This document shows, in pieces, positions 51,944 to 59,898 of a stretch of 64,000 bases of DNA. The notes below the pieces were generated by a model. That model had not been told where the DNA came from. It did not search any database and was given only the letters and a program-made list of their open reading frames with translations. The translations under genes were made by a program, and so were the position numbers. Source of the DNA: Bacteroidota bacterium (GTDB lineage: Bacteria; Bacteroidota; Bacteroidia; JACCXN01); assembly GCA_013696965.1 (NCBI GenBank), contig JACCXN010000094.1:37434-101433 (forward strand). The letters run 5' to 3'. The first letter of the stretch is position 1, and each line of letters starts with the position of its first letter.

Positions 51944-52984
51944 TCATTCTAAAAAATAAAAATCACCTGGAATAATGCCGGCATTAAAGGAATTAATTAA
52001 ATTACCTTCTTTGCTGTACCTCATTATTTTCCCCTTTTGAACATAATCAATTGCATCAGCAATATATATTATTCCTGTTTTTGGTTCAACTCCCAATCCA
52101 TAAAAATTTAAATTGTTTTGGACAATGAAAGGCTGCGTGTCCAGCTCAATATTATTGATGCTTGCCCTACAAATACCATTGTTTAAGAAATACAGCATAT
52201 CCCCCTCGCTGTTTATTCTTAATTTAAAGGGATTTTGATTTGCATTGGGAAAATGGACAGAATATTCAACGAGATTTGTTTCAGGATTTACTCTATGAAT
52301 GCTTCCCGGTATGCCCCCGGTGTTCTCTCCACTGCAAAGTATCCATAGTTTTCCGTTTTTATCTTTTCGTATAGAGTTTGAAGCATAACCAGTTTTAATG
52401 CTATCAGTTAAAAGGTCTGTTATTGGGTTAAAAACATAGAGGTATTCACTTTTTAAATTAGTCACGAAAACCTTTCCACTTGAAAAAATCAACTCTTCTG
52501 TAAAACCTCTGCATGGAATTGTTTTAATTACCGTATTGTTGGTTAAATCAAGCACCGAAATTACATTAGAAGCATAATCTGTGACATAAGCCTTGGTTTC
52601 GCTTACAGCCTTAATATATCTTGGAGAAGTTAAGCCATTTATACTTGCAAGTGATTTAAAATCAGAAAGATTTACTACCTCAATTTTACCAGAATTATTT
52701 ACTACCAAATAAGCCTTGCTGCCAATTATTTCCATGGATTGAAATACATCCCCAAGGGGACGGTCATTGGCTGTTTTAAAAACATTAGTTGAATATGAAC
52801 TATCGGCATTGTTGTAAAAATCAATTGAAGCATTGCCCCACTGGTAATTGCCTTCATTAAGAATGAAAACACCTCCTTGTGGAGTAATTTGAATTGGTTT
52901 TTCAGGATCAGGCTTAATAGGCTTGTCCTTTTTACAGGATAAACAAACAAGAATAATAACCAATGTAAATAATCTGTACATCAT
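51944..52984 (-). CDS. btuG: BtuG-like DUF5074/YncE-type beta-propeller lipoprotein
   Basis: A 346-residue lipoprotein: signal peptide LFTLVIILVCLSC with lipobox Cys at residue 17, followed by CKKDK, a basic/acidic start that fits surface export of Bacteroidota lipoproteins. The mature part is a seven-bladed propeller of the DUF5074 type (FILNEGNYQWGNASIDFYN, SKAYLVVNNSGKIEVVNL). DUF5074 proteins of Bacteroides (BtuG) bind cobalamin tightly on the cell surface and work with a BtuB receptor. The gene overlaps its neighbour by 4 bp and is the last of the riboswitch-controlled operon. The symbol is by family and context; binding is not shown. Confidence 0.82.
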   Translation of the reverse strand: MMYRLFTLVIILVCLSCKKDKPIKPDPEKPIQITPQGGVFILNEGNYQWGNASIDFYNNADSSYSTNVFKTANDRPLGDVFQSMEIIGSKAYLVVNNSGKIEVVNLSDFKSLASINGLTSPRYIKAVSETKAYVTDYASNVISVLDLTNNTVIKTIPCRGFTEELIFSSGKVFVTNLKSEYLYVFNPITDLLTDSIKTGYASNSIRKDKNGKLWILCSGENTGGIPGSIHRVNPETNLVEYSVHFPNANQNPFKLRINSEGDMLYFLNNGICRASINNIELDTQPFIVQNNLNFYGLGVEPKTGIIYIADAIDYVQKGKIMRYSKEGNLINSFNAGIIPGDFYFLE

Positions 52985-54006
52985 TTTAAAAGTATAACTT
53001 TTTGATTTTCCATGTTTTTTTCACCCCTAAAATTCAGGATATAAAGACCATTTTGTAATGCTTCAATATTTACCGAAATACTATAATCGCCAATTTCTTT
53101 ATATGCATCTTCAAAAATACGAACCTCAATGTTATCAGTTCTCCTAAGACTTATTTTTATATTCCCTGGTTCTTTTATGCTATATTTTATTGTTATATTA
53201 TCTTTTACGGGATTGGGAAAAGAATTTATACTAAAAAGACTGTTTTTTTGCTTTTTAACACTTGTTCCCGGCACTTGATTAATAACTCCCACTGCATCTA
53301 AATCAAAACCACCTTGGGGAAATGGAGTTGGAAAAGGATCATTAATTTTATTGTTCTGTGCATCCCTAGTGGCATATTGATCGTTTAAAGAACCTACTAC
53401 ATCAATAATTTTAACATGGGTGATATGGTTTACATCAAGACCGGGGATATTTGTCATCTCCTCCAAATCAAAGGGTGTTCCATAAAAAAGCTTGTATTTT
53501 CCCGCCAGGTTGTTAAGTTTGCTAGCTTCTGATAAATCAAATGTGCCTAATTGAGTGTTAGTGTCGGTAAGGCAAGTAGCAGGGAAACGGAAAAAAGTTT
53601 GTCCATTGGAACTTACTTCCACAAATGCCAGTTCCAAAAAGGAACCATCAAATGAATTTTCAAAAACTGCAAAATCATAACCGGGGCCATTGATAATAGG
53701 CCCTTCAAAAGTAAGTACAGCCGTTCCCCCATCCCCAAGACTAACAGTTCCACTTGTTCCTGATTTTCCAATTGCCATCTGAGCTTCTCCCGCTGATGCA
53801 TATCCTATTGAAGCATTGGAAATATCTTGTAATCCTCTTGTTACCTGGCAAGCTATTGCCCAATTAATAAAGATGATGCTATCCTTATGAATTGCTGCTG
53901 ATCCTGGTTGCCCAGCCCCAGGAGAAAACTGCGCAAAAACGCCAGGTAAAAAAAGACAAAAGCCAGGCAAAAAAGCAAATATTATTTTTTTCATACATTT
54001 GATCAT
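52981..54006 (-). CDS. T9SS-sorted surface protein of the cobalamin operon
   Basis: A 341-residue exported protein: signal peptide (IIFAFLPGFCLFLPGVFAQ), a jelly-roll-like domain with GPGYDFAVFENSFDGSFLELA and AFVEVSSNGQTFFRFPA, then a type A T9SS sorting domain (SINSFPNPVKDNITIKYSI ending in NQKVILLK). I recognise the FAVFENS family as one often found beside TonB receptors for cobalamin, but its biochemical role is not known to me. The ATG at 53994 (MKKIIFAF) may be the true start. Between the DUF4465 gene and the BtuG-like gene, in the same riboswitch operon. Confidence 0.8.
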   Translation of the reverse strand: MIKCMKKIIFAFLPGFCLFLPGVFAQFSPGAGQPGSAAIHKDSIIFINWAIACQVTRGLQDISNASIGYASAGEAQMAIGKSGTSGTVSLGDGGTAVLTFEGPIINGPGYDFAVFENSFDGSFLELAFVEVSSNGQTFFRFPATCLTDTNTQLGTFDLSEASKLNNLAGKYKLFYGTPFDLEEMTNIPGLDVNHITHVKIIDVVGSLNDQYATRDAQNNKINDPFPTPFPQGGFDLDAVGVINQVPGTSVKKQKNSLFSINSFPNPVKDNITIKYSIKEPGNIKISLRRTDNIEVRIFEDAYKEIGDYSISVNIEALQNGLYILNFRGEKNMENQKVILLK

Positions 54007-54051
54007 AAAATCAATAAAACCTGGAATTCTGTAAGGTTTTATTCACTGCAA

Positions 54052-55065
54052 TTAATTTTTAATAAAAATAGTTCGTTCAATAAAATGATCAGAATTAGAT
54101 ACCTCAATAATGTAAGCTCCTGAAGGGTATCCCGAAACATTAATTTTATATTTATCGGTGTTTTCAATGTTCTCTTTAAAAAGTTCTCTTCCTGCAAGAT
54201 CCCTTATGCTGATAAAGGTATAATTTGAGCTTGTAAATGAAACATTTAATTGATCACCTGCAGGATTTGGGTAAAAGGCAAACAGATTTTTTTTGAAGTG
54301 GTTTTCTACCAATAGAGGCGAATCCATTGTAGTGAAATCATCTACGCAAAAATATCCTGGAGTATTCATTCCCCAATCTCCATTGTCAGAAGAGGAAAGA
54401 TGAAAGATAAGGCTGTCTAAATTGCCTAATGATTCCAAATTAACCCACTCCCAGGTGGTAACTATATAATTTTGCGATGCATTGGAAAAACGATAATCTG
54501 CAAGATAAAAATCAACGGTGTCATTGATGGGAGCATTGTTGTAAAAACCAGTTATGCTTAATTTGTACCAATCTTTGCCTTGAGTGCCATCAATATCGCC
54601 ATTTGCTCCATAAATTGAACCGAATTGCTTACCTATGGCATCTCCTTGAAGCATACTGATAGCCGCATAGGTTGAATTTGTAACGTACATTCCATTTACA
54701 ATTCCTCCTTTTGCAGCATTTTTCAGATGGATAACAGCGGCATCCATACCAATAGCATAATTAGCAGAATTGTAGTATCCGCTTGCAGTTCTGGCGCTGT
54801 ATAAATTTGTAAATCCTGCCGTTGTGCTGTCCTTCATGTTGGAATATGCAAAGCCTTCACTCCAATAACCTCCCCAGGTTAAATCAAAAGTATTGGTAAA
54901 AAAGGCATTTCCGCTATTAAATCCCTGCGATAAATCGCTTCCTTCCCAATAAGAATCTGCATTAAGCGAAAGGTTTTCATAATCCGAAACTGTTTGTGCA
55001 TTGGAATACACAGTAATTGACATTAAGATTTTAAACAGAATTAATTGAGTTGCTCTTGTTTTCAT
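54052..55065 (-). CDS. DUF4465 protein with T9SS sorting domain
   Basis: A 337-residue secreted protein: signal peptide (LILFKILMSITVYSNAQ), a DUF4465 domain at about residues 28-255 (YENLSLNADSYWEGSDLSQ, then FDLTWGGYWSEGFAYSNMKD, GYFCVDDF), and a type A T9SS tail (FAFYPNPAGDQLNVSF, ending TIFIKN). DUF4465 proteins occur in cobalamin loci of Bacteroidota. A surface cobalamin- or ligand-binding role is inferred from the riboswitch and receptor, not shown. It follows the receptor gene by 10 bp. Confidence 0.85.
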   Translation of the reverse strand: MKTRATQLILFKILMSITVYSNAQTVSDYENLSLNADSYWEGSDLSQGFNSGNAFFTNTFDLTWGGYWSEGFAYSNMKDSTTAGFTNLYSARTASGYYNSANYAIGMDAAVIHLKNAAKGGIVNGMYVTNSTYAAISMLQGDAIGKQFGSIYGANGDIDGTQGKDWYKLSITGFYNNAPINDTVDFYLADYRFSNASQNYIVTTWEWVNLESLGNLDSLIFHLSSSDNGDWGMNTPGYFCVDDFTTMDSPLLVENHFKKNLFAFYPNPAGDQLNVSFTSSNYTFISIRDLAGRELFKENIENTDKYKINVSGYPSGAYIIEVSNSDHFIERTIFIKN

Positions 55066-55075
55066 AAAATTTAAG

Positions 55076-56992
55076 TTAATTGAATTTAATTGTTAACCCG
55101 GCTTGATAATTCCTTCCGGGCATAGGTCTCCAGGCCATTACCTGGTAATTGGAATTAAAAAGATTGTTTGCACGAATAAAAAGTTCCGCCTTGTATTTAT
55201 TGATTTCCATAATTCTTTTTAAAAAAAGTCCGGAAAGGTAAAAAGGAGGTAGGAATTCTGAATTATCGGAAGTTGTATATCTATAACCAGTATAGGCTTG
55301 ACTAAAATTAAAATGCCATTTTTTATGAGAAATGGCAAAAATTCCTGTCCCACTATAAAGTGGAATATATATCAATTGCTTTCCAAGTGAGGCATCATTG
55401 GCATTTTTGGCCCTTTCATTTGTTGAAATAGTGTAATTTCCAAGGACGGATACTTCAATATTCCAATTTCCACCTTTGTATTTGACTTTGGCGCTCGTTT
55501 CTGTACCACGACTCCATACTTCCATAATATTTTGTGGGACCCAATAATTTTCCTGGGGCAACCATATTATCCAGTTTTTAATGTTTCTGTTAAATAGCGT
55601 AAACTCGGCATTGCCAACATATTTATCTCCATCTTTATTAAATACAATTCCCGCTTCCTGATTCCATCCTGTTTCAGGTAAAAGGGAAGGATTTCCTCCC
55701 GGATACCAATATAAATCATTCAAAGTAGGAATTCTATAGCTTCTGGAAAAATTGGCTTTTATTTTTACATTTTGCCACAAATTGCTTTCAACTCCTGCAG
55801 CTGGGATAAAAGGAAAAAATTTATTTTCCGATACCTCCTGCCTTGCACTAAACAAAACATTCCATTTTTGTTTTTTATTCCAATGTTTAAGAGATGCAAA
55901 AAGGGCTGTTCTGTTTCTATCAGGATTAAATTGATATCCATCAGAAAAGGCTTTGTTGTAAGTATTATTCACTCCCACATTAAGCAATTGCCTATCCCTT
56001 AGTATTAAATTAACTTCAGCTTCGGATATAAGGCTTATTACTTTAGTTTCAGAAAATAGTGCAGTTGCCTGATCACTATATTCAATAGTTTCATTAAACC
56101 ATGCAGAACGGATAAAATAGGAAGCCAACTTATTTTTTTTGGACCATTCCGAACTAGCCCTGATTGAATTGTCCAGCTGGCTGGAAAGGGAAAGCTGCTG
56201 TGACATAACTGGGGGAATATTTCTGTTGGTTTGCTGATACCAAAACCTAAAGTTAATGTGTTGATTTCGTGAAAGTTTAATGTAATTTTCCTGAAGAAAT
56301 CCTTTTTGTACAAGTTCCGAATTGCTTTGTTTTTGTATAGGACTTCCTTCAAGGGTTGAATTAACGAAACTAAAATCATTCAATGCTGAACGATATTGAA
56401 GGCGTGCCGTAGTGGTATATTTTTCACTGGTTTTTACGGTAAAATTTATTTGCTGCTGCCTTTCTCCAAAACTTCCTGCAACTGAAGTTGAGCTTAGTGC
56501 AAATCCTTTAGCCAAAGAAGGTGTGTTTTTTAAATGGATTGCTCCTCCAATAGCTCCGCTTCCCCAAAGGGTTCCATTGCTACCGGACTGAAGTGAAACA
56601 GCATCAATAAAATTCACAGGGATCAGTGAAAGATCAACAATGCCATGGGATGGGCTTTGCAGGTTAAATCCATTCCATAAAACTGCGGTGTGAGCTGCTC
56701 CTGCTCCCCTAATGGAACTACTTGCTAGGCTGCCTGCTCCATATGATTTTACAATTACTCTGCTTTGGGTACTTAGAAGTTCATCAAGTGAAACTGTTTT
56801 ATTAATCATTAAGCCAAATGAATCAACATCTTCAGTTTTTCCACCAGTTGAAAATTTAACTTCTCTTGAATCCTTTATAATAAATGTTTGCAAGGTTATA
56901 ATGGAGTCAATAGCTGGTACCTGCCCACTACACTGGTTTATAACCAGTGTAGTGAACACAATTAAAACAACCAACGGTTTCAAATAATTCAT
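55076..56992 (-). CDS. btuB: TonB-dependent outer-membrane receptor (BtuB-like)
   Basis: A 638-residue receptor: signal peptide (LVVLIVFTTLVINQCSGQ), a plug domain (about residues 45-155; RVIVKSYGAGSLASSSIRGA, GSNGTLWGSGAIGGAIHLKN) and a 22-stranded barrel ending GLTIKFN. The size and the lack of the N-terminal carboxypeptidase-like domain of SusC proteins fit a small-molecule receptor such as BtuB. The cobalamin riboswitch ends 115 nt before its ATG, which identifies the substrate as a corrinoid with good confidence. Transport needs TonB, and BtuFCD genes must be elsewhere. First gene of a four-gene operon. Confidence 0.88.
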   Translation of the reverse strand: MNYLKPLVVLIVFTTLVINQCSGQVPAIDSIITLQTFIIKDSREVKFSTGGKTEDVDSFGLMINKTVSLDELLSTQSRVIVKSYGAGSLASSSIRGAGAAHTAVLWNGFNLQSPSHGIVDLSLIPVNFIDAVSLQSGSNGTLWGSGAIGGAIHLKNTPSLAKGFALSSTSVAGSFGERQQQINFTVKTSEKYTTTARLQYRSALNDFSFVNSTLEGSPIQKQSNSELVQKGFLQENYIKLSRNQHINFRFWYQQTNRNIPPVMSQQLSLSSQLDNSIRASSEWSKKNKLASYFIRSAWFNETIEYSDQATALFSETKVISLISEAEVNLILRDRQLLNVGVNNTYNKAFSDGYQFNPDRNRTALFASLKHWNKKQKWNVLFSARQEVSENKFFPFIPAAGVESNLWQNVKIKANFSRSYRIPTLNDLYWYPGGNPSLLPETGWNQEAGIVFNKDGDKYVGNAEFTLFNRNIKNWIIWLPQENYWVPQNIMEVWSRGTETSAKVKYKGGNWNIEVSVLGNYTISTNERAKNANDASLGKQLIYIPLYSGTGIFAISHKKWHFNFSQAYTGYRYTTSDNSEFLPPFYLSGLFLKRIMEINKYKAELFIRANNLFNSNYQVMAWRPMPGRNYQAGLTIKFN

Positions 56993-57107
56993 TACAAACG
57001 ATTAAAGCATTAGCTAAAATCATCTATAACAAACGGCAAAAATAAAGAGATAGAAATACAGGTTCTATTCTTCGCTTTTTCTCCGAAAGCTACAAATGTC
57101 TATTATT

Positions 57108-57268
57108 GGCAGGTCTTCTGACTTTGCTCGTTCTCCGAGGCCTTCCCGTTGATTTTAATTCTACAGTGGCAATAATCCGAAAAACATTAATAAGCATTAC
57201 AGCAGCGGGAACTGTTAAGGATTTTCACCTTATTCCCTTTTCATTCCTTATAAAAGGAAACCGATAAT
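57108..57268 (-). ncRNA. Cobalamin (AdoCbl/B12) riboswitch
   Basis: The minus strand holds the conserved core in order: GGGAATAAGGTGAAAATCC, CAGTTCCCGCTGCTGTAA (the C-CCGC-ACTGT core), GCCACTG, ACGGGAAGGC, and the B12 box AGTCAGAAGACCTGCC. These match the cobalamin riboswitch aptamer (Rfam RF00174 class). It sits in the leader of the BtuB-like receptor operon, 115 nt before the ATG. In this class, binding of adenosyl- or other cobalamins normally lowers expression. The P2-type hairpin is visible in TTTCCTTTTATAAGGAA upstream. Confidence 0.95.
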
Positions 57269-57495
57269 CCGGTAAAAGTACTAAATTTTTATATTTTACC
57301 AGAAAGATTGTGTTGAATTTTTAAGGCCATGTTTGTTTTTATAAAATTATTTTGTGAAAGTGGCGTAATTATTTTCATTTCAATTGAAAAGTTCAGGTTT
57401 ATTTGTTAAATTTAATTTAATAATTAATTTTACCTTAGAAATAACAAGAGGAATCTGCCTTTAGGTTTTGTATTTTAAAAGTTGATAAAGAGAAA

Positions 57496-59514
57496 ATGCC
57501 TACATTTATGAAAGTAGAAAAAGGACAACTTTTTCAGAACAAAAAAAACAACAACCCCGTTGATCCTGTTTTTTCAGATACGCACTATATTGCTGAAAAC
57601 AATAGATTAAATAATTTATTAATGGCAGTAATAAATTCATCTGAGGGCAGTGTATTTATTTTTAATTCTGTTAGAAATAATTCAGGCGAAATAGTTGATT
57701 TTAAAGGTGTGGTTTCAAATCTGAAATCAAAAGAAATTATTAATATTGATTCAAAGGATTTCCCTGGAAAGTATTTAAAGAAAAACAAACTCATTCGCAT
57801 ATTTTTTCCTGAAGATTTTATTAATGTTGTTGAAACATCGAATGATTTTTCTATTGAGTTCCAGGAGGCGCATGACAATTCCATTAAGTGGTACAGGCTA
57901 TTAGCTGTTAAGGAAAGCGATGGAATTGTTGTTACACTTACCGATATTACAGAAAAAACATTTTATTTAAAGAAAAAACAGAGTGATTTTGATGATCTTG
58001 TTGAAATAAACGGGAAGATTGTTAAAATGAATTCAAAGCTTGAAAACAGGATCAGGAGAAGAACAAAGGAATTATATTTGAGTGAGGAGCGGGTTAAATT
58101 GTTGTCAAAAGCAACAAATGATGCTGTTTGGGATTGGGATCTTTCAAGAGGCAGAACATGGTGGAATGAAGGGTATTATGCCCTTTTTGGATATAGTGAT
58201 CAATATGTTCAACTTGGAAACAATTCATGGTTTAGTCTTGTTCATCCTGATGATTATCATCGTATAACAGGTGGGATTAAAGCTGTGCTAGAGTCCTCGG
58301 CAGATCAATGGAATGGTGATTTCAGATTTTTGAAGGCGGATGGAAATTACGCTTTTGTGTTGGGCAGAGCCTATGTTCTACACGATAAAAATGAAAAACC
58401 AATCAGGATTGTAGGTTCTATGATCGATGTTTCAGAAATAAAGCAGGCGCAGGATGAAATCATTCAAAGTGCTGAACGAACAAGGCTTATTGCAGAATTA
58501 ATGCCTCAAAAAGTTTGGACTGCTGATAGCAAGGGAAACATGAATTATTTAAATCCGCGCTGGATGGAATATACAGGACTTGGATTCGATGAGTTAAAAA
58601 ACTGGGGCTGGCAAAAGGTAATTCATCGCGAGGATTTGTTTGAAACAACCCGACTATGGAAACATTCAATTGAAACTGGACAGGATTTTCAAATAGAACA
58701 CAAAATGGCAGCTCAAAATGGCAAGTTTTACTGGCATTTGACAAGGGGGGTGGCATGCAGAGATGTAAATGGTAAAATCATCAACTGGGTAGGAACAAAT
58801 ACGGATATTCATGATAAAATTGTTTCAGAGGAAAGGAAAGATGAATTTATTGGGGTGGCAAGTCATGAATTGAAAACTCCTCTAACCAGTTTAAAGGCAT
58901 ATACGCAGTTGCTTGAAATAACCATTGATGAGGAAAACATTAAAGATTCTAAAACTTACATTAAGAAAACCAATACTTTTATTAACAGATTGGATGAATT
59001 AATTTCTGATCTTTTGGATATTTCTAAAATGCAAGCAGGAAAGCTTCAATACAATATGTCAGAATTTAAGTTTGATGATCTGATAAAAGAAAGTATAGAA
59101 TGCATTAAGCAGACACATAAAACCCATAAAATCATTGTTAATGGAAAATCACGAAAAATTATAAATGCAGATAAAACAAGGTTAGAGCAGGTATTTGTTA
59201 ATTTTTTATCCAATGCGATTAAATATTCACCTAAATCAAACAAGGTGAACGTGGATATTTTAGCCAACAAGGATGGAATAACAGTAGGTGTAAAAGATTA
59301 TGGAATTGGGATTGATAATGAAAAGGCAAAAAATGTTTTTCAACGATTTTACAGAGTAGAGGGTATGTCGCATAAATTTCAGGGACTTGGACTTGGGCTT
59401 TATATTTCTGCCCAGATAATTGAAAGGCATGGTGGAAAGTATTGGGTGGAAAGCGAAGAAGGAGTAGGATCAACGTTTTGGTTTTCTCTGCCATATACCT
59501 GTTTATGCAATTAA
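57496..59514 (+). CDS. Cytoplasmic PAS-domain sensor histidine kinase
   Basis: A 672-residue soluble kinase (no TM seen). A degenerate PAS-like region at about 30-155 and a short coiled coil are followed by two PAS domains (about 198-320, KATNDAVWDWDLSRGRTWWN; about 325-445, PQKVWTADSKGNMNYLNPRW). HisKA comes next with ASHELKTPLTSLKAYTQLLE (His457), then an HATPase domain with NFLSNAIKYSP, KDYGIGI and GLGLGLYISAQIIERHGG. A Met five codons in (MKVEKGQLF) is an alternative start. The receiver gene starts 24 bp downstream, so they form a pair; the signal is unknown, perhaps a redox or ligand cue through PAS. Confidence 0.92.
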   Translation: MPTFMKVEKGQLFQNKKNNNPVDPVFSDTHYIAENNRLNNLLMAVINSSEGSVFIFNSVRNNSGEIVDFKGVVSNLKSKEIINIDSKDFPGKYLKKNKLIRIFFPEDFINVVETSNDFSIEFQEAHDNSIKWYRLLAVKESDGIVVTLTDITEKTFYLKKKQSDFDDLVEINGKIVKMNSKLENRIRRRTKELYLSEERVKLLSKATNDAVWDWDLSRGRTWWNEGYYALFGYSDQYVQLGNNSWFSLVHPDDYHRITGGIKAVLESSADQWNGDFRFLKADGNYAFVLGRAYVLHDKNEKPIRIVGSMIDVSEIKQAQDEIIQSAERTRLIAELMPQKVWTADSKGNMNYLNPRWMEYTGLGFDELKNWGWQKVIHREDLFETTRLWKHSIETGQDFQIEHKMAAQNGKFYWHLTRGVACRDVNGKIINWVGTNTDIHDKIVSEERKDEFIGVASHELKTPLTSLKAYTQLLEITIDEENIKDSKTYIKKTNTFINRLDELISDLLDISKMQAGKLQYNMSEFKFDDLIKESIECIKQTHKTHKIIVNGKSRKIINADKTRLEQVFVNFLSNAIKYSPKSNKVNVDILANKDGITVGVKDYGIGIDNEKAKNVFQRFYRVEGMSHKFQGLGLGLYISAQIIERHGGKYWVESEEGVGSTFWFSLPYTCLCN

Positions 59515-59538
59515 GGAATAGTTAACAAATTCAAAAAC

Positions 59539-59898
59539 ATGAAAAAATGTATACTCATTTGTGATGATGATATTGACATATTAGAGGTTACAAAAATTGT
59601 TCTTCAAAAGAGCTTTAAAGTTGAAACACTTACGCATTGCAATGACATTTTCAAAAATTACGAGAAGTATAAGCCTGACCTTATACTAATGGATTTGTGG
59701 ATACCTGATATGGGTGGAGAAGCAATTACAAGATTGTTAAAAAGCAGCAGTAAAACTAAAAAGACTCCGGTTATTATTTTTTCGGCAAACAACGACATAG
59801 AAAAAGTTTCTTTTAATGCTGGTGCAGATGGCTTTTTAAGAAAGCCTTTCGATATTAAAACCTTAAATCAGGCAATAAATGATTTTTTAACTATTTAA
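59539..59898 (+). CDS. Single-domain response regulator (CheY-like)
   Basis: A 119-residue receiver without an output domain. The acidic pair is in ILICDDDIDILEV, the phospho-acceptor Asp52 in LILMDLWIPDMGG, the switch residue in VIIFSAN (Ser in place of Thr) and the conserved Lys in FLRKPFD. It is the natural partner of the kinase just upstream (24 bp). With no DNA-binding domain it must act by protein contact or pass phosphate on in a relay. Confidence 0.93.
   Translation: MKKCILICDDDIDILEVTKIVLQKSFKVETLTHCNDIFKNYEKYKPDLILMDLWIPDMGGEAITRLLKSSSKTKKTPVIIFSANNDIEKVSFNAGADGFLRKPFDIKTLNQAINDFLTI

Follow-up and report, generated by a model that had tools for sequence, protein, structure and literature searches.

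The analysed window is a 64,000-nt stretch of DNA in which a cobalamin riboswitch and four genes form an operon on the minus strand, transcribed in the order riboswitch, BtuB-like receptor, DUF4465 protein, FAV (FAVFENS) and BtuG-like protein (Table 1). The riboswitch is separated from the BtuB-like gene by 98 bp, the latter from the DUF4465 gene by 10 bp and this from the FAV gene by 45 bp, while the FAV and BtuG-like genes overlap by 4 bp; the close, co-directional packing described in the original prediction is borne out. The aptamer is the sole Rfam match in the window (gathering score 31.5) and the single RF00174 match in the whole genome; it lies upstream of the uptake genes in the same direction. 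It had been predicted to be complete, and the match indeed spans the full model. The operon was placed correctly at 51944–57268, except for its upper end, since the aptamer reaches 57280. The same set of genes recurs across the class Bacteroidia, so the grouping is not a chance one. The operon contains no btuFCD genes. Promoter scans returned fewer sites than scans of shuffled sequences and were not used; terminator-like sites, which are mere consensus matches, were somewhat more numerous than in the shuffles (9 versus 4.8). Just past the riboswitch and divergent from the operon, two genes (57496–59898, plus strand) encode a histidine kinase with a PAS domain and a response regulator of the single-domain type.

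Table 1. Features of the cobalamin uptake operon in the window
Feature	Position	Strand	Basis
Cobalamin riboswitch aptamer (RF00174), 5′ leader of the operon	57091–57280	−	108.2 bits, E 3.7e-26, full length (1–189)
BtuB-like TonB-dependent cobalamin transporter, 638 aa	55076–56992	−	PF00593 and PF07715; BtuB chains 8p98/8p97
BtuJ-family (DUF4465) predicted B12-binding protein with C-terminal T9SS sorting tail, 337 aa	54052–55065	−	PF14717, PF18962
FAV (FAVFENS), 341 aa: BtuH-like domain (residues ~25–247) and T9SS sorting tail (263–338); candidate corrinoid binder	52981–54006	−	PF18962, AF2 model, family context
BtuG-like DUF5074 propeller protein with lipoprotein signal LVCLSC, 346 aa	51944–52984	−	PF16819; 8p97_B

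The two outer genes encode the proteins that were expected. The BtuB-like receptor comprises a barrel and a plug and is nearest in sequence to the Bacteroides BtuB chains 8p98 and 8p97 (E 7e-63). The BtuG-like protein matches PF16819 with 91 bits (E 7.9e-26) and the BtuG chain 8p97_B with an E-value of 1e-57; its lipobox was read by eye. B12-binding domains occur in four proteins of the genome, which is listed as 100% complete; of the two synthesis families searched for, neither CbiD, a marker of B12 synthesis, nor CobT, an enzyme of nucleotide-loop assembly, was found in it. This gene content fits a B12-using cell that must import the vitamin. Many microbes are limited by B12, whose uptake by Bacteroidota is known mostly from gut Bacteroides.

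Compared with the operons of Bacteroides thetaiotaomicron, in which BtuB–BtuG occur with BtuH, BtuJ, BtuK and BtuL, the operon in the window has the same cobalamin riboswitch, BtuB, BtuG lipoprotein lid and DUF4465 (BtuJ) protein. In B. thetaiotaomicron operon 2, the genes of BtuJ2 and BtuH2 are side by side, as are those of the DUF4465 protein and FAV here. However, FAV occupies the place of a recognisable BtuH, and the BtuJ and BtuH proteins of B. thetaiotaomicron are lipoproteins, whereas the BtuJ relative and FAV bear T9SS tails.

The DUF4465 protein matches PF14717 over the full domain with 167 bits (E 5e-49, cut-off 25) and is similar to BtuJ1 (9qpm/9fct; E about 1e-20). Five of the six B12-contact residues are identical: W64, Y133, N234, T235 and Y238 correspond to Trp78, Tyr146, Asn241, Thr242 and Tyr245 of BtuJ1, and Tyr97 is replaced by F85. 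Crystal structures with B12 are available for BtuJ1 and BtuJ2 (PMC12751083); a second paper adds six divergent members of the family, one of them from Fluviicola taffensis, and has eight divergent DUF4465 members binding B12 (PMC13398666). T9SS-type C-terminal targeting motifs (IPR026444) have also been published, for 229 of the 824 DUF4465/IPR027828 members, and the term T9SS is absent from both DUF4465 papers (PMC12751083, PMC13398666). Judging by its domain, contact residues and tail, in which nothing essential differs from the family, the protein falls within the T9SS-tailed BtuJ group as a typical member and is a predicted B12 binder. As BtuJ binding and T9SS-type tails are both published, this half of the finding was already known. 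The two tailed proteins had been put forward as untested candidates for corrinoid binding, a description that still applies to FAV but not to the DUF4465 protein, whose family has B12-bound crystal structures. The two papers (PMC13398666 and PMC12751083) conflict on the targeting of DUF4465 proteins: in one, more than 70% are lipoproteins and the rest periplasmic; in the other, 38% have C-terminal extracellular motifs. At locus L108 (8291–9904, minus strand), a single gene encodes DUF4465 domains in tandem that share one T9SS tail, and DUF4465 genes of similar length occur in L101, L104, L113, L115 and L117.

Both middle proteins end in T9SS type A sorting domains (PF18962/TIGR04183) that score above the Pfam cut-off of 27 bits, with 49 bits (E 7e-13) for the DUF4465 protein and 32.2 bits (E 1.3e-7) for FAV, in agreement with the tails originally predicted. 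The translocon protein SprA (2698 bits) and the sortase PorU (1420 bits) were found in the genome above their curated cut-offs, so a T9SS is present. The reading of these genes as a cobalamin uptake operon under riboswitch control, with two T9SS-tailed accessory proteins, is well supported by RF00174, the BtuB and BtuG relatives and the PF18962 tails. The tail model is matched by 52 of the 59 aligned FAV proteins and by 43 of the 45 neighbouring DUF4465 proteins, while the BtuG neighbours with a well-called start have lipoprotein signals (read by eye). From these counts and signals, the arrangement seen in the window, with a lipoprotein lid and T9SS targeting of the other predicted binders, is the rule in this group. 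The better-known cargo of the T9SS consists of enzymes, adhesins and proteases, in contrast to the predicted vitamin binders encoded here. Some T9SS cargo of Flavobacterium is released; other cargo, for example that of Porphyromonas, is attached to lipopolysaccharide. A type A tail points to secretion without distinguishing attached from released cargo, and the term 'anchored', as used in the original prediction, is unproven. It is quite conceivable, at a little under an even chance, that the cells release BtuJ and FAV as soluble proteins that scavenge B12, much like hemophores or vesicle-borne BtuJ, rather than holding them at the surface. The type A (TIGR04183) tails and the released cargo of Flavobacterium agree with this, as does the BtuJ of B. 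thetaiotaomicron, which works on vesicles in a siderophore-like manner (PMC12751083); the lipopolysaccharide-attached cargo speaks against it. Release would be compatible with the main explanation given below, and whether the B12 binders are held by the cell or released is a testable question raised by the finding.

The distribution of FAV was analysed in 295 sampled genomes of the class Bacteroidia. Full-length relatives occur at 87 loci in 86 of these genomes, representing 25 families. A BtuB homologue is located within the fetched region at 59 of the 87 loci; BtuG and DUF4465 genes are also frequent nearby, and in most loci BtuB, BtuG or DUF4465 is adjacent. An RF00174 riboswitch lies upstream on the same strand of 61 of the 87 FAV genes (52 with BtuB and 9 without), including that of L083, whose called start overlaps the aptamer. 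One further gene is preceded by an AdoCbl riboswitch, bringing the total for cobalamin-type riboswitches to 62 of 87. Among the remaining 25 loci, there are 15 in which the contig extends no more than about 3 kb upstream, where absence means little; the ten solo FAV genes with enough upstream sequence have no riboswitch above the cut-off. Since the background is one or two riboswitches per ~3 Mb genome, the association is not due to chance. A scan of public genomes found at least 513 FAV relatives; 80 of these loci, mainly from uncultured Bacteroidota, were fetched, and in 55 of the 80, one or more of BtuB, DUF4465 and BtuG are encoded nearby on the same strand. The N-terminal domain of FAV has no Pfam match, and a literature search, mostly without subscription journals and preprints, found no paper describing FAV and none coupling BtuG or BtuH with the T9SS. 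FAV is a widely conserved but undescribed component of loci for cobalamin.

Membership of such an operon is no proof of binding, since BtuL, encoded in a B12 operon of B. thetaiotaomicron, does not bind cobalamin (PMC12751083). By analogy with BtuL, FAV could be a non-binding structural or docking partner that joins BtuJ, BtuG and BtuB or helps to deliver the complex, with B12 bound by BtuJ and BtuG only. However, there are FAV genes under their own riboswitch with no BtuB, BtuJ or BtuG nearby (L042, L064, L069, L079 and L083), and in L086 (4985–6793, minus strand) CobT and CobS come after a FAV gene that stands alone; in these arrangements, such a protein would have no partner to dock. Homologous gene pairs are found in L032 and L083. 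The arrangement in L086 links FAV, through gene order, to the assembly of the corrinoid nucleotide loop independently of BtuB. The same pairs would suit a role of FAV in handling incomplete corrinoids, such as cobinamide, for salvage, instead of complete cobalamin. Such a specialisation is nevertheless improbable: the usual neighbours of FAV genes are BtuB and BtuG, and the genome of the window, having no detectable CobT, could not finish cobinamide by the CobT route.

FAV and DUF4465 domains also occur fused in single proteins, in the order DUF4465–FAV–T9SS tail in L047 (6335–7939, plus strand) and FAV–DUF4465–T9SS tail in L116 (5760–7685, minus strand); the opposite domain orders suggest two independent fusion events. 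In L132 (1255–3060, plus strand), a BtuH domain is fused to a DUF4465 domain, which parallels the fusions of FAV. The profiles of DUF4465 and FAV themselves have no detectable relation (0.6% probability).

The structure of FAV was modelled confidently with AF2 from an alignment (pLDDT 91.9); a single-sequence prediction of the domain alone reached a pLDDT of 31 and was discarded. Among solved structures, the N-terminal domain is matched best by the BtuH domain of BtuG1/BtuGH (8blw_B, residues 392–660), with a Z-score of 11.4 and an RMSD of 3.8 over 166 residues at 18% identity. Other β-sandwiches have similar structural scores, including PAPP-A (Z 10.5) and the CBM 2jda (Z 9.5). Foldseek by itself placed β-glucuronidases, PAPP-A and similar proteins first, with TM-scores of about 0.3 or less, and a second aligner and profiles were used instead. 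BtuH2 itself (7biz) was missing from the rows of the second aligner, which counts neither for nor against the match. A phmmer search of the PDB with FAV yielded no useful match, and the FAV profile matched 8blw_B with an E-value of 6e-4. In a profile–profile comparison, FAV and BtuH scored 38.6 at 61% probability, versus a maximum of 22.6 among 40 column shuffles; the match is local, comprising 37 columns at 52–61% probability. A remote FAV branch matches BtuH over 105 columns (88% probability, E 3e-6) and FAV with a probability of 99.5%.

The segment shared with BtuH can be written as VSLGxGG...DFxVxxNxF. Within it, Asn399 and Phe401 of BtuH2, which contact the B12 phosphate and the lower base, respectively, align with N117 (conserved in 59 of 59 FAV proteins) and F119 (56 of 59). 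The other BtuH2 contacts (Gln333, His476, Tyr510, Trp511, Trp577 and Leu578) are outside the aligned segment, and no counterpart of the region with the corrin contacts His476, Tyr510 and Trp511 was detected in FAV. Because the remote branch, whose surroundings show no link to B12, keeps the N-x-F pair as well, these two residues may be conserved for structural reasons. The BtuH domain differs from that of FAV in length (~290 versus ~225 residues) and, having a lipoprotein anchor, in targeting; FAV has a T9SS tail and neither PKD nor propeller domains. On the grounds of a weak and partial homology, the nearest N-terminal domain structure and the fused or adjacent DUF4465 in both cases, FAV is probably related to the B12-binding domain of BtuH, from which it has diverged. 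Because the homology is local and the other contacts fall outside it, FAV is likened to BtuH in function, with moderate confidence, but is not classed as BtuH. The corrin-contact region that is not detectably conserved, and the presence of a FAV-like fold outside B12 loci as well, would both suit a docking protein, but the nearest solved fold to FAV is a B12-binding domain; a docking role is unlikely.

FAV is probably a secreted, BtuH-like corrinoid binder, and the operon as a whole can with reasonable confidence be regarded as a corrinoid scavenging operon in which secreted BtuJ and FAV feed BtuG–BtuB. Low cellular cobalamin would allow the riboswitch to permit expression of BtuB, BtuJ, FAV and BtuG. 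BtuJ and FAV would be exported by Sec and cross the outer membrane by the T9SS, PorU cutting off their tails; outside the cell, attached to the surface or released, they would bind corrinoids and hand them to the BtuG–BtuB complex for TonB-driven import. FAV would thereby take the place that BtuH has in Bacteroides. For this organism, we infer B12 binding by FAV, the order of hand-off, secretion and repression.

The existence of the operon is confirmed and what it serves for is clear; the DUF4465 part was already known, and the FAV family is the most useful outcome. Corrinoid binding by FAV, if confirmed, would give a function to a so far undescribed family present in about 30% of the sampled genomes of the class, and would tie the T9SS to vitamin scavenging in addition to enzymes and adhesins. 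The chances are about equal for and against the broader view that FAV represents a new kind of secreted corrinoid-binding protein extending across the class, related to BtuH but diverged from it and using the T9SS, which together with T9SS-tailed BtuJ would give many Bacteroidia other than gut Bacteroides an extracellular, possibly released, layer of B12 capture distinct from the lipoprotein layer. The remote FAV-like branch (L119–L125) is situated outside B12 loci, beside unrelated genes; two of its copies lie directly behind an arabinono-lactone oxidase-like gene.
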